Assembly (NCBI RefSeq): GCF_003590945.1
Contig: NZ_QYUK01000011.1
Location: 3,318,909-3,382,908 of the forward strand
DNA: 64,000 bases
Direction of reading: 5' to 3'
DNA from: Oleomonas cavernae
GTDB lineage: Bacteria; Pseudomonadota; Alphaproteobacteria; Zavarziniales; Zavarziniaceae
Shown: positions 55,423 to 62,147 of the stretch, piece by piece
How the letters are laid out: every line of letters begins with the position of its first letter
Numbering within the stretch: the first letter of the stretch is position 1
Notes under the pieces: generated by a model
Database searches by the model: none
Seen by the model: only the letters and a program-made list of their open reading frames with translations
What the model was told of the DNA's origin: nothing
Program-made: the position numbers and the translations under genes

Positions 55423-57342
55423 TCAACCCGGCGGGGTCGCTTCCGCCACCAGTTGCTCGATGGCGGCATCGAGCGCCAGCACCGCCTGCTCGCCGCCGTG
55501 GAGCTTGCGCAGGGCCACTTGGGCGTTCTCGGCCTCGCGCTTGCCCAGCACCAGCATATAGGGCGCCTTGGTCAGCGAATGCTCGCGCACCTTCAGGTTG
55601 ATCTTCTCGTTGCGCGTGTCGACCTCGACCCGCAGGCCCCGCGCCCTCAGCGCCGCCGCGACCTGCGCGGCGTAACCGTCGGCGTCCGAGGTGATGGTGG
55701 CGACCACCGCCTGGGTAGGCGCCAGCCACAGCGGCAGGTGGCCGGCATAGTGCTCGATCAGGATGCCGATGAAGCGCTCCAGGCTGCCCAGGATCGCCCG
55801 GTGCAGCATGACCGGGCGCTGCTTGGATCCATCGGCGGCGATATAGGAGGCGTCGAGCCGCTGCGGCAGCAGGCTGTCCAACTGGTGCGTGCCGCACTGC
55901 CAGGTCCGGCCGATCGCGTCTTTGAGGTGGAATTCGATCTTGGGGCCGTAGAAGGCGCCCTCACCGGGTGCGATTTCGTAGGTCATGCCCGCTGCCTCGA
56001 TGGCGGCGCCCAGATCGGCCTCGTTCTTGTCCCATTCCGCGTCCGTGCCGATGCGCTTGTCCGGGCGCGTCGCCAGGATCACCTTGAACTCGCTGAAGCC
56101 CAAATCGGCATAGACGCTTTCGAGCAGGCGGCAGAACCGCTTGGTTTCCGCCACCACCTGGTCGGCGGTGCAGAAGATGTGAGCGTCGTCCTGCACGAAC
56201 TGGCGCACGCGCATGATGCCGTGCAAGGCGCCCGAAGGCTCGTTGCGGTGGCAGCAGCCGAATTCGGCCATGCGCATGGGCAGGTCGCGATACGAGACCA
56301 GGCCCTGGTTGAAGATCTGCACGTGGCCGGGACAGTTCATCGGCTTGACGCCGAACATGCGCCGGCCCTCGTCCACCGGCACCTTCAGCATGTTGTCGCC
56401 ATACATCTCCCAGTGGCCCGAGGCGATGTAGAGCGAACTGTCCACCAGTTGCGGGGTGCGGACCTCGACGTAATCATCCGCCTCGATCTTGCGCCGGATG
56501 TAGTTCTCCAGCGCCCGGTAAAGCGTCCAGCCCTTGGGGTGCCAGAAGATCGAGCCCGCCGCCTCTTCCTGGAGGTGGAACAGGTCCATCTCGCGGCCCA
56601 GCTTGCGGTGGTCGCGGCGCTCGGCCTCTTCCAGGCGCGTCAGGTACTCTTTCAGTTCCTTCTCGTCGCGCCAGGCGGTGCCGTAGATGCGCTGGAGCAT
56701 GGCGTTGCGGTGATCGCCGCGCCAATAGGCGCCGGCCACCTTGGTCAGCTTGAAGCCATGGCCCAGCTTAGCCGTCGAGGGCAGGTGCGGGCCCAGGCAC
56801 AAGTCGATGAAGTCGCCCTGCCGGTACAGGCTGATCTCTTCGCTCTGGGCCAGGTCGCGGATGATCTCGGCCTTGTAGATCTCGCCCTTGTCCAGGAAGA
56901 AGGCGGCGGCCTTGTCACGGTCCCAGACTTCGCGGGCAATCGCCTCGTCGCGGTCGACGATCTCGTGCATCCGCTTCTCGATCACCTCGAGATCGGCCGG
57001 CGTGAACGGCTGCTCCCTAGCGAAGTCGTAGTAGAAGCCGTTCTCGACCGATGGGCCGATGGTGACCTGGGTGCCGGGGAACAGTTCCTGCACCGCTTCC
57101 GCCATGACATGGGCGCAGTCGTGGCGCAGCAGGTCCAGGGCTTCCGGCGACTTGCGGGTGATGATCTCGATCTTCGCGTCCCGCTCGATCACGGCGGCCA
57201 GGTCCACCAGCTTGCCGTCGATGCGCATGGCCAGGGCCGCCTTGGCCAGGCCGGGTCCGATGTCGGTGGCGAGCGTAGTGCCACTGACCGGCCCCGGATA
57301 GGAGCGCACGCTGCCGTCGGGCAGGGTCAGTGAAACCGACAT
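55423..57342 (-). CDS. thrS: Threonyl-tRNA synthetase
   Basis: 639 residues, the usual length. The N-terminal TGS domain ([22 protein letters not shown]) is followed by an editing/SAD domain with [24 protein letters not shown]. The catalytic core has the zinc Cys in [16 protein letters not shown], motif 2 [22 protein letters not shown] and motif 3 [23 protein letters not shown]; an anticodon-binding domain follows. In many genomes thrS precedes infC; here they are 8 kb apart. Rare codons (GCT AGG at about 57015, GCT AAG near 56769) occur. Confidence 0.97.
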
Positions 57343-57461: not shown

Positions 57462-58757
57462 CTATGCCTCGGCTTTTGCCACGCCGACGGGGCTGGCGCC
57501 CCGCCTCGGGGTACCCAGCAGGACGGTCGTCGCCGCATTCGCCTGGACGTTCACGACCGTGAGCGCCGGATCCAGGATGGGGTCGACCGCGACCAGCAGG
57601 ATGATCGCCACTTCCACCGGCAGGCCCAGCGGCACCAGGACCAGCGAGATCATCGACAGGGCGGCGGCCCCCGGCGCGCCCGAAGCGGCAATGCCCGCCA
57701 GGACGCAGGCGACCAGCACATAGGCCATCTGGCCCGCGTCCAGGTCGACCCCATAGAGATTGGCCAGGAACACCGTGGCGATGGCAAAATGAAAGACCGA
57801 GCCCGGCGGGTTGAGCGTGATGCCAAGGGGCATGACGAGGTCGACCACATTGCGTTCGACCTTCAGCCCGTCCTTGAGGCCGCGCAGGGCAGCCGGCACG
57901 GCGGCAAAGCTGCTGGACGTGCCGAAAGCCACGAAAATGGTCTCGCGCAGCGTCGAGATCGGCTTCCAGATGCTGCCGCCCATGCGCACCCAGATGACCA
58001 CGAACGAAAATGCGACCAGGGCCAGGCAGCCGGCATAGGTGAGCAGGACAAGCTTGGTCATGGCGACCAGGATGGGCATCCCGATCGCCGAGATCTGGCT
58101 GTAGGCCAGGCAGAAAAGGCCGAGCGGCAAGACATACATCAGCCAGGCGATGATCTTGATGAAGGTCTCGTACAGGCTTTCGAACACCACGATCGCCCGC
58201 TCGGACTTCTCCTTGCCGATGGAGCCCAGCGCCACGCCGAAGAGCACGGCAAAGAACAGGATCGCCAGCATGTTGCCGGTGCTGAGCGCCACGAAGATGT
58301 TCTCAGGCACAATGCCCACGGCGATCAGCACGATATCGGCCGGATTGCTTGCCCCGGCCGCCGTATGGGAGCCGGTTTCGGCGCGGAAGATGACCTCGCC
58401 GATGATGGTGCGCGCCTGTTGCTGAAGCTCGGCGCCCGGCTCGCCCCATTCGCCGAGCAGGAGGCCCAGGCTACCGGCGATGACCATGCCCAGCAGCACC
58501 ATCACGATCAGGCGGCCGATGTAGCGCCGCGCCGACCCGTCGGAGAACAGCTTGGCGAGGCTGGTCACCACCGCGGTGAACAGCAGCGGGATGACGCACA
58601 TCTGCAGCAGCCGCAGATAGACCTGTCCCGCCGGCTCGATCAGGGGTGTCCCGCCCTTGTCGATCCAGCCGTAGAGGCAGCCGAGCAGCATGCCGGCGAA
58701 GACGCTCACGGGATGGAGCAGGACGGCGCCCAGGATTTTCTGCGTCTTCTCAATCAT
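57462..58757 (-). CDS. DAACS-family dicarboxylate/amino acid symporter
   Basis: 431-residue cation symporter of the GltP/DctA family: VFAGMLLGCLYGWIDKG, RLLQMCVIPLLFTAVVTSLAKL, the serine-rich hairpin FVAFGTSSSFAAVPAALRG and VNVQANAATTVLLG. The substrate motif usually written NMDGT reads ITLNPPGSVFHF, so the ligand may be unusual. Its start overlaps the end of an upstream periplasmic binding protein gene by eight bases, an uncommon partnership for this transporter type. Confidence 0.88.
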   Translation of the reverse strand: MIEKTQKILGAVLLHPVSVFAGMLLGCLYGWIDKGGTPLIEPAGQVYLRLLQMCVIPLLFTAVVTSLAKLFSDGSARRYIGRLIVMVLLGMVIAGSLGLLLGEWGEPGAELQQQARTIIGEVIFRAETGSHTAAGASNPADIVLIAVGIVPENIFVALSTGNMLAILFFAVLFGVALGSIGKEKSERAIVVFESLYETFIKIIAWLMYVLPLGLFCLAYSQISAIGMPILVAMTKLVLLTYAGCLALVAFSFVVIWVRMGGSIWKPISTLRETIFVAFGTSSSFAAVPAALRGLKDGLKVERNVVDLVMPLGITLNPPGSVFHFAIATVFLANLYGVDLDAGQMAYVLVACVLAGIAASGAPGAAALSMISLVLVPLGLPVEVAIILLVAVDPILDPALTVVNVQANAATTVLLGTPRRGASPVGVAKAEA

Positions 58758-59628
58758 TGGTCAGCACCCGGTCGGTTGAATAGAGGTAGGTGTTGAGAAT
58801 TGACGCAAGGAAGCCGTTGCCCTCCACTTTCTGGAGATAGAGGTCGATCCAGGCCTTCAGGTCCGGATCGTTGCGGTTCATGGCGATGGCGATCGTGTCG
58901 GGATGGCCGGCCAGGTGGAACGGCCGCAGTTCGAGCGAGCCGGCCGGATCGGCGAGGCGCCAGTTGCCGATCTCGATCTCGTCATACATGAGCGCCACCA
59001 GTTGCCCGGCCTTGACCGCCGCCAGCATGGCGTCCCAGGTCTCGAACTCGACCGTCCTGGCCTTGGGGAAATCCTCCTTCAGGAAGCCGACATAGGATGT
59101 CCCGCCGATCACGCCGATGCTGGAAGCCTGGTCGTTGAGCATGGCGGGGATCGCCGTGGCATCCGCGCGCCCGCCCCCGTTCTTGGCGATGAGCTTGCCG
59201 AGCTCGAGGCGGTTGATCAGCAGGAATTGCCGCACGCTGACATAGCTTCGGCTGAAATTGACCCGTCTCGCCCGGTCCAGCGTATCGCTGAGCAGGCTGA
59301 CCGCGATATCGGCGCGCCCCGCCTCGACCTCGTCGACGACACCGTCGAAGGTGGTGGCGGAGCGGTTGAAGACGAGCTGAACGCCCAGCTTGCTGGCGAT
59401 GTCCTCGGCCAGGCCGGGATCGATGCCGACGAGCCTGCCGCCCTGGTCCTTATAGAAGAACGGCGGCACGTCCTCGGCAAACATGGCGACGGTCAGCACG
59501 CCCTTCTGCCGGATACGCTCGATGGCGGCAGAAGAATCCTGTGCCTTCGCGAGACCCGCGAAGGCGAGAGCGGTCACCAGCAGAAAAATCGGGGAAAGGA
59601 GAAGTTTGGCGGGAGCAAAAAAGGTCAT
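58750..59628 (-). CDS. Family 3 solute-binding protein coupled to the symporter
   Basis: 292 residues with signal peptide 1-30 (LLLSPIFLLVTALAFAGLAKA). The SBP_bac_3 domain shows IRQKGVLTVAMFAEDVPPFFYKDQGGRLVGIDPGLAEDIASKLG, GVVDEVEAGRADIAVSLLSDTLDRARRVNFSRSY and SIGVIGGTSYVGFLKEDFPKA. It probably binds an amino acid or dicarboxylate. No ABC permease or ATPase is nearby; the next gene is the DAACS symporter. The ATG at 59628 was chosen (MTFFAPAK). A cell-surface sensing role is an alternative. Confidence 0.85.
   Translation of the reverse strand: MTFFAPAKLLLSPIFLLVTALAFAGLAKAQDSSAAIERIRQKGVLTVAMFAEDVPPFFYKDQGGRLVGIDPGLAEDIASKLGVQLVFNRSATTFDGVVDEVEAGRADIAVSLLSDTLDRARRVNFSRSYVSVRQFLLINRLELGKLIAKNGGGRADATAIPAMLNDQASSIGVIGGTSYVGFLKEDFPKARTVEFETWDAMLAAVKAGQLVALMYDEIEIGNWRLADPAGSLELRPFHLAGHPDTIAIAMNRNDPDLKAWIDLYLQKVEGNGFLASILNTYLYSTDRVLTND

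Positions 59629-60320: not shown

Positions 60321-60328
<8 letters not shown>
59999..60328 (+). CDS. cyaY: Iron donor protein CyaY (frataxin)
   Basis: 109-residue bacterial frataxin. It has the acidic N-terminal helix ([23 protein letters not shown]), the beta-sheet motif [29 protein letters not shown], and [22 protein letters not shown]. It modulates Fe-S cluster assembly by binding iron and the IscS-IscU complex. The ATG at 59999 follows GGAAGGA. Its last eight bases overlap the following ABC exporter gene. Confidence 0.92.

Positions 60329-62147
<1,819 letters not shown>

Follow-up and report, generated by a model that had tools for sequence, protein, structure and literature searches.

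The gene pair and its surroundings

Within a 64-kb stretch of the Oleomonas cavernae genome (hereafter, the window), a gene for a solute-binding protein (SBP) of the SBP_bac_3 family is followed by a gene for a carrier of the SDF (DAACS) family, which has the SLC1 fold (Table 1). A preliminary description of this DNA had stated that the SBP gene overlaps the start of the symporter gene by eight bases, and we found exactly this overlap. It suggests that translation of the two genes may be coupled. A promoter scan found no sigma-70-like site, and a terminator scan found two terminator-like sites, which is the level expected by chance. The next gene on this strand, 119 bases past the carrier gene, is that for threonyl-tRNA synthetase (thrS; positions 55423-57342).

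On the upstream side, two genes are divergent from the pair: one of the frataxin family and one for an ABC transporter of the exporter type. The preliminary description had placed no ABC components nearby. This holds for importers, as none of the six neighboring window genes that we scanned encodes an importer-type ABC permease or ATPase, but it overlooked the exporter. Pfam scans of the pair found no TRAP or TTT membrane components (DctM/DctQ or TctA/TctB) and no SBP of the DctP, TAXI, or TctC types, nor the combination of a TAXI SBP with an ESS-family carrier. The leading families were SDF only in the carrier and SBP_bac_3 in the SBP, along with weak matches below the cut-offs.

Table 1. Features of the gene pair and its neighborhood, in window coordinates
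Feature	Position	Strand	Details
SBP gene, SBP_bac_3 family, 292 aa	58750-59628	-	ATG at 59628, stop at 58750
Carrier gene, SDF/DAACS (SLC1 fold), 431 aa	57462-58757	-	ATG at 58757, stop at 57462
8-base overlap, end of SBP gene and start of carrier gene	58750-58757	-	ATGATTGA; SBP ends in N-D-stop, carrier begins with M-I-E
SBP Arg119, presumed contact of the alpha-carboxylate	59272-59274	-	Invariant in 24/24 linked SBPs
SBP Asp216, presumed contact of the alpha-amino group	58981-58983	-	Invariant in 24/24 linked SBPs
Carrier NPPGS in place of NMDGT (residues 316-320, TM7)	57798-57812	-	Alignment
Carrier TM8, DPILDPALTVVNVQAN (residues 392-407)	57537-57584	-	Alignment; D390 and D394 (GltPh numbers) retained, L399 in place of R397, N407 in place of D405
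Exporter-type gene, fused ABC_membrane and ABC_tran	60321-62147	+	Domain scan of neighbors

The pair recurs in other genomes

Besides the window, we analyzed 39 loci with carriers of the same subfamily (20 loci from L065 to L084; 10 loci from L093-L099, L101, L102, and L148; 8 loci from L187-L192, L194, and L195; and L193). Duplicates from the same contig (L091, L092, L100, and L103) were dropped, and L104 was counted as L193. An SBP_bac_3 gene adjoins the carrier gene or is one gene away in 36 of these 39 loci, but in none of 65 loci with conventional SDF carriers (Fisher p = 8e-25), which are the weaker matches of the same scan rather than a random draw, span at least 14 kb in 41 cases and at least 8 kb in 55, and were searched for SBP_bac_3 only, so that other families of SBPs would be missed. 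Because our SBP profile detects ordinary SBPs (it finds 7 of the 8 other SBP_bac_3 loci in the O. cavernae genome), the absence of hits in the 65 controls is meaningful for SBP_bac_3. Also, there are just nine SBP_bac_3 matches in the 5.6 Mb of this genome, far too few for the pairing in 36 of the 39 loci to be credited to chance. The preliminary description had named uniqueness of the pair to this genome as grounds for giving up its reading, and the pair is not unique. The hosts include Proteobacteria, Spirochaetota, and Fibrobacterota.

The SBP is absent from L066 and L195, both of which begin at the end of a contig, and from L193, which has no SBP in the 8 kb upstream; the genome with L193 has a second copy that is paired (L192). 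Among the 36 loci with both genes, the SBP gene is directly before the SDF gene in 22, a cyclase gene separates them in 10, the SDF gene comes first in three (L071, L084, and L101), and the two genes are divergent in one (L074).

These counts come from several searches. A class-wide search with the carrier matched 28 of 385 genomes (E ≤ 1e-40), and tblastn placed the SBP within 1.5 kb of the carrier in six other genomes. In a phylum-wide profile search, carriers from seven genomes besides O. cavernae scored 305-410 bits; below a gap in the scores were a second gene from one of the seven (250 bits) and conventional carriers (222 bits or less). Wider stretches around the phylum-wide loci included the SBP in 19 of 20 cases. 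A scan of named genomes with six closer carriers yielded 80 loci; the SBP was found in 14 of 15 loci with carriers above 350 bits (subfamily profile) versus none of the 65 at 280 bits or below, and the count was repeated with a broader SBP profile. A search of the phylum to which L101 belongs matched 13 of 296 genomes (E ≤ 1e-60), four with subfamily carriers and nine with conventional ones, and a search of the family of Microvirga matched 3 of 149; the loci added from these two groups were all paired. As a single query against genome contigs, the window's carrier was too distant to find any relatives, and a search of plasmids with the carrier gave only matches below 60%, which are named as ordinary DAACS proteins.

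Some loci have additional members of either family. Four loci (L065, L067, L068, and L095) have a second SDF gene, and L084 has two SBP genes in tandem (L084:7427-9241) after its single SDF gene. A divergent SBP_bac_3-like protein is encoded directly before the SDF gene in L065 (L065:3437-4354; 29 bits, above the cut-off) and in L071 (L071:4739-5560; 21 bits, below the cut-off), so some clusters seem to hold two kinds of SBP. We found no fusions of SBP to SDF among the loci examined. Two GC-rich loci, L067 and L068, have open frames of over 700 amino acids that were considered as fusions and rejected, as they overlap a separate SBP frame in another phase; according to Pfam, the long frame in L067 contains SDF only.

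The paired carriers lack the acidic sodium ligands

The window's carrier matches SDF (PF00375) with 271.5 bits (the cut-off is 27.9) across positions 4-384 of the 387 in the profile, and the NCBIfam models for GltP, DctA, and SstT give it 76-152 bits versus cut-offs of 308-638 bits. Its AlphaFold2 model (pLDDT 84.5) has the SLC1 elevator fold, and the top matches from Foldseek are an ancestral uncoupled aspartate transporter and GltPh/GltTk (E = 4.3e-17, or about 1e-17; TM = 0.75 against 9bh0). Among 69 carriers placed in a FastTree tree, one branch with a support of 100 separates the 44 subfamily rows from the 25 conventional rows, with a few long rows in the tree. The carrier of L192, whose score is between those of the two groups (310 bits), is placed by the tree within the subfamily. 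The nearest row to the window's carrier is L066 (41% identity), which has the motif NPAGS.

In GltPh and GltTk, as described in the available sections of PMC5110648, D405 coordinates Na1, D312 and N310 coordinate Na3, and R397 (R401 in GltTk) contacts the side-chain carboxylate of aspartate. The segment GITLNPPGSVFHF of the window's carrier aligns with GATINMDGTALYQG of a solved aspartate transporter. The acidic ligands of sodium are missing: P318 is at the position of D312 and N407 is at the position of D405. Elsewhere in TM8, D390 and D394 (GltPh numbers) are retained, and R397 is replaced by L399. Because R397 is the contact for the side-chain carboxylate and is a leucine here, the ligand of the window's carrier is likelier to have a neutral than an acidic side chain.

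The preliminary description had flagged the change from NMDGT to NPPGS, which is real and belongs to the branch as a whole. We compared 38 carriers of the subfamily with 104 conventional carriers (both sets deduplicated), leaving out the column for the hydroxyl of Na3 in TM3, whose placement is uncertain. D312 is present in none of the 38 subfamily carriers (versus 83/104 conventional carriers) and neither is D405 (versus 72/104); position 405 is asparagine in 24/38 versus 25/104. N310 (5/38 versus 100/104) and N401 (4/38 versus 98/104) are rare as well, and the usual residue at the position of M311 is arginine (31/38). The residues on the substrate side are better retained: D390 in 34, D394 in 24, and R397 in 26 of the 38.

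We considered whether these carriers might be coupled to protons instead. The signature of proton-coupled DAACS carriers is reported to be M311L, D405N, a hydrophobic residue at T92, and S279E (PMC12668577, available sections). The subfamily does not have this signature (M311L in 1/38 and S279E in 0/38, with D405N in 24/38), so we rejected this idea. The same source describes experimental evidence for uncoupled transport of aspartate by an SLC1 protein, so there is no physical obstacle to proteins of this fold taking up a substrate uncoupled from ions (PMC12668577). Equally, the absence of both acidic ligands could mean that transport itself was lost.

The binding protein probably belongs with the carrier

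The window's SBP matches SBP_bac_3 with 80.3 bits (the cut-off is 26.4). By eye, its N-terminus has a hydrophobic, signal-like stretch, and no lipobox cysteine was seen. The AlphaFold2 model (pLDDT 87.0) is a two-domain amino-acid-binding protein, and the best matches from Foldseek are amino-acid-binding SBPs (E = 2.8e-21); the nearest structures are an L-tryptophan-bound SBP, AncCDT-1, and arginine-binding proteins. Arg119 and Asp216 are invariant among the linked SBPs (Table 1). Based on mapping from LAO/HisJ, we presume that they contact the alpha-carboxylate and the alpha-amino group of an amino acid.

SBP_bac_3 proteins classically serve ABC importers, so the two genes might share an operon and otherwise be independent: the carrier would work alone, and the SBP would deliver to an ABC importer encoded far away. 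The O. cavernae genome does encode other SBP_bac_3 proteins, and the best NCBIfam names for the window's SBP are those of SBPs from ABC transporters, although all of these are far below their cut-offs. This explanation is already disfavored because the pair recurs in different phyla (36 of 39 loci). Furthermore, the linked SBPs form a distinct subfamily: a profile of them gives 250-380 bits to the linked SBPs and at most 64 bits to the other SBPs of the O. cavernae genome, and in a tree whose branches are long and whose root is weak, the window's SBP is placed among the linked SBPs (85/99 support). To judge from these comparisons, the window's SBP does not look like the ABC-linked SBPs of the same genome, and we consider it quite improbable that the two genes are independent.

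The two families also vary together. The distance matrices of SBP and SDF are correlated across 37 pairs with r = 0.80, which includes a contribution from the shared history of the species; none of 5,000 permutations was as high, and none was above 0.27. Overall, it is strongly supported that the SBP and the carrier are one functional unit, with a joint function.

Another concern is that the pair might be decaying and functionless in O. cavernae. The distribution of the pair is patchy, and the three congeneric genomes that we searched have no match at E ≤ 1e-40. On the other hand, both frames are intact, the start-stop overlap is retained, and the predicted folds and the ligand residues of the SBP are intact as well, which makes decay very improbable.

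Adenylate cyclases and racemases in the clusters of relatives

The clusters of relatives often include an adenylate cyclase with a dCache domain: it was found in 17 of the 39 loci and in none of the 65 controls (Fisher p = 4e-9). This gene, which encodes dCache and class III cyclase domains, is between the SBP and SDF genes in ten loci and is elsewhere in the cluster in seven. The catalytic residues (the metal-binding Asp pair, a Lys-Thr pair, and an Asn-Arg pair) are present in 16 of the 17 proteins, and the sequence from L187 is cut off. We take these pairs to have their usual roles, and the Lys-Thr pair is presumably typical of adenylate cyclases. L065 encodes an adenylate cyclase of the AAA-TPR type (L065:8485-11838), divergent from the SBP-SDF pair, which we did not count with the dCache cyclases.

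In one Spirochaetaceae metagenome-assembled genome, the carrier domain and the cyclase are joined. A protein of 1,236 amino acids (L101:9166-12873, which is the same as L196:2775-6482) has SDF, dCache, and cyclase domains, and the gene order is SDF, SBP, the SDF-dCache-cyclase fusion, and then a racemase gene. The SDF half of the fusion is degenerate (60 bits and 24% identity to the neighboring SDF protein). Because SLC1 proteins are trimers, a mixed trimer of the SDF protein and the SDF-cyclase fusion is an obvious, if speculative, idea.

A gene from the family of aspartate/glutamate racemases (PF01177) is present in 12 of the 39 loci (L067, L069, L070, L072, L073, L075, L095, L096, L098, L099, L101, and L188) and in none of the 65 controls (p = 2e-6). 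In L072, it is split across two frames. Of four racemases that we scanned, three are above the cut-off of NCBIfam's "amino acid racemase". In L073, a BhcC-like gene (3-hydroxy-D-aspartate aldolase family, below the cut-off) adjoins the cyclase gene.

The window's pair has neither a cyclase nor a racemase gene adjoining it, so for evidence on the operon we depend on relatives, which are at 26-42% identity. The cyclase profile had no match in the 64 kb of the window, so the sensor enzyme is not encoded with the window's pair. The O. cavernae genome contains seven class III cyclases, all of them apart from the pair. We considered these as the missing partner: five matched the profile, none of the five has the dCache half, and the best match covers positions 439-731 of the profile only, although one of them might still act in trans.

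Uptake, sensing, or both

We favor, with modest confidence, the view that the pair is an amino-acid carrier with the SLC1 fold that is served by an SBP, that lacks the classical sodium sites, and that doubles as a sensor where the cyclase is present. We chose this combination because ion-uncoupled uptake and signaling by SDF carriers both have precedents. Given the family of the SBP and its conserved Arg and Asp, the presumably periplasmic SBP would bind an amino acid. As the linkage of the genes suggests, the loaded SBP would dock on the SDF carrier. The carrier, with an elevator fold that lacks the acidic ligands for sodium, would then take over the amino acid and bring it into the cell; affinity and direction would come from the SBP's capture of the ligand and from metabolism of the product, instead of from the usual coupling to sodium. 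Finally, in lineages with the cyclase gene, the state of the SBP and carrier might set the activity of the dCache adenylate cyclase, so that the supply of the amino acid controls the production of cyclic AMP. The window's pair has the genes for the first three steps only.

Alternatively, transport might be lost entirely, and the SDF-like protein might be just a receptor for the loaded SBP, which would signal via the cyclase in its cluster or, in O. cavernae, via a cyclase or another partner in trans. The dCache cyclases in 17 of 39 loci, the natural fusion (with a degenerate SDF half, and encoded beside separate genes for SDF and SBP), the absence of the sodium-binding acids from 38 of 38 carriers, and the seven class III cyclases elsewhere in the O. 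cavernae genome are all consistent with a pure sensor. There are also SDF co-sensors, such as DctA with DcuS (PMC4280142) and DctA-DctB-DctS (PMC6978683), as described in the available text of these papers. But there is no cyclase nearby in 22 of the 39 loci or in the window, and none of the five cyclases of O. cavernae that match the profile has a dCache part. Also, the hairpins of the transport domain and D390, D394, and R397 are largely retained, and a mere receptor would not need them. The racemase genes fit with uptake, because amino-acid enzymes encoded nearby were suggested to maintain the gradient for uncoupled transporters (PMC12668577, available sections). We think that a pure sensor is unlikely.

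The preliminary description had proposed a binding-protein-dependent secondary carrier outside of the TRAP and TTT families. The recurring pair and the absence of TRAP and TTT components agree with this proposal, but whether the pair transports anything is less clear: because of the dCache cyclases in 17 of 39 relatives and the fusion to SDF, sensing is a serious alternative or addition. In a more specific and rather doubtful version of our view, these systems would be SBP-fed transceptors with the SLC1 fold: the loaded SBP would dock on a carrier without sodium sites, the dCache cyclase would read out the state of the carrier and, in one lineage, this would occur via a hetero-oligomer with the fused SDF-cyclase protein.

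Relationship to known systems

One of the two nearest analogies is TAXI-GltS (BP0403-GltS) from Bordetella pertussis. There too, the SBP gene overlaps the gene for an elevator-type secondary carrier, TRAP, TTT, and ABC membrane components are absent, and an SBP-dependent carrier outside of TRAP and TTT was proposed (PMC12344293). TAXI-GltS differs in that the SBP is of the TAXI type (a tri-domain dimer), the carrier is from the ESS/GltS family and its motif is not degenerate, SBP-carrier fusions exist, and no cyclase is reported in the available sections of that paper (PMC12344293). TRAP and TTT systems also have a periplasmic SBP that delivers to an ion-driven carrier, but neither part is related in sequence to the window's pair. 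The conventional DAACS carriers GltP, DctA, and SstT share the fold and full-length homology with the window's carrier, which differs from them in having lost NMDGT and D405.

Bacillus subtilis DctB is a DctP-type SBP. As the preliminary description had noted, DAACS carriers do by and large operate with no binding protein, but B. subtilis DctA, which works with DctB and DctS, is an exception in signaling (PMC6978683). This tripartite system, the other near analogy, is similar to the clusters with cyclases in that it combines an SDF carrier, a co-receptor or binding protein, and a membrane-bound sensor enzyme; it differs in that the output is a histidine kinase, the ligands are C4-dicarboxylates, and DctA is a functional conventional carrier (PMC6978683, available sections). 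In DctA/DcuS, an SDF carrier is likewise a co-sensor (PMC4280142). The Ext-Int uncoupled aspartate transporters have the SLC1 fold without the full sodium or proton signature, and their neighbors are often amino-acid enzymes; however, they form a clade of Bacillota with intact binding sites, and the available sections mention neither an SBP nor a cyclase (PMC12668577).

SBP-dependent secondary carriers (TRAP, TTT, and the proposed TAXI-GltS) and SDF co-sensors are already known. Our searches of one open-licence library found no SBP_bac_3-SDF unit and no link between SDF and a cyclase; the combination of an SBP_bac_3 protein, a branch of SDF without sodium sites, and an adenylate cyclase may be new. 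The recurring pair, often with an adenylate cyclase, suggests an unrecognized system for uptake or sensing.

Jaques et al. (2025) asked why SBPs are not found with more secondary carriers and if the elevator mechanism is what permits this; further classes of SBP-carrier systems would allow this idea to be tested (PMC12344293, available sections). Because SLC1 is the best-understood elevator, an SBP-served SLC1 protein would test it directly. The loss of both acidic ligands across the paired branch raises the question of whether ion coupling can be replaced by an SBP. The cyclase connects a second messenger with the fold of the glutamate transporters. If these proteins are transceptors, then TRAP, TTT, and TAXI-GltS would not be the only elevator carriers to have recruited SBPs, and this would be, to our knowledge, the first link between the glutamate-transporter fold and the production of cyclic AMP.

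The SBP-cyclase-SDF cluster is retained in some very small genomes: four genomes of 0.8-1.2 Mb from one family (L076, L078, L079, and L080). A cluster is also present in Caedibacter (L098 and L099). Its presence in small genomes hints that the cluster matters for host-associated life.
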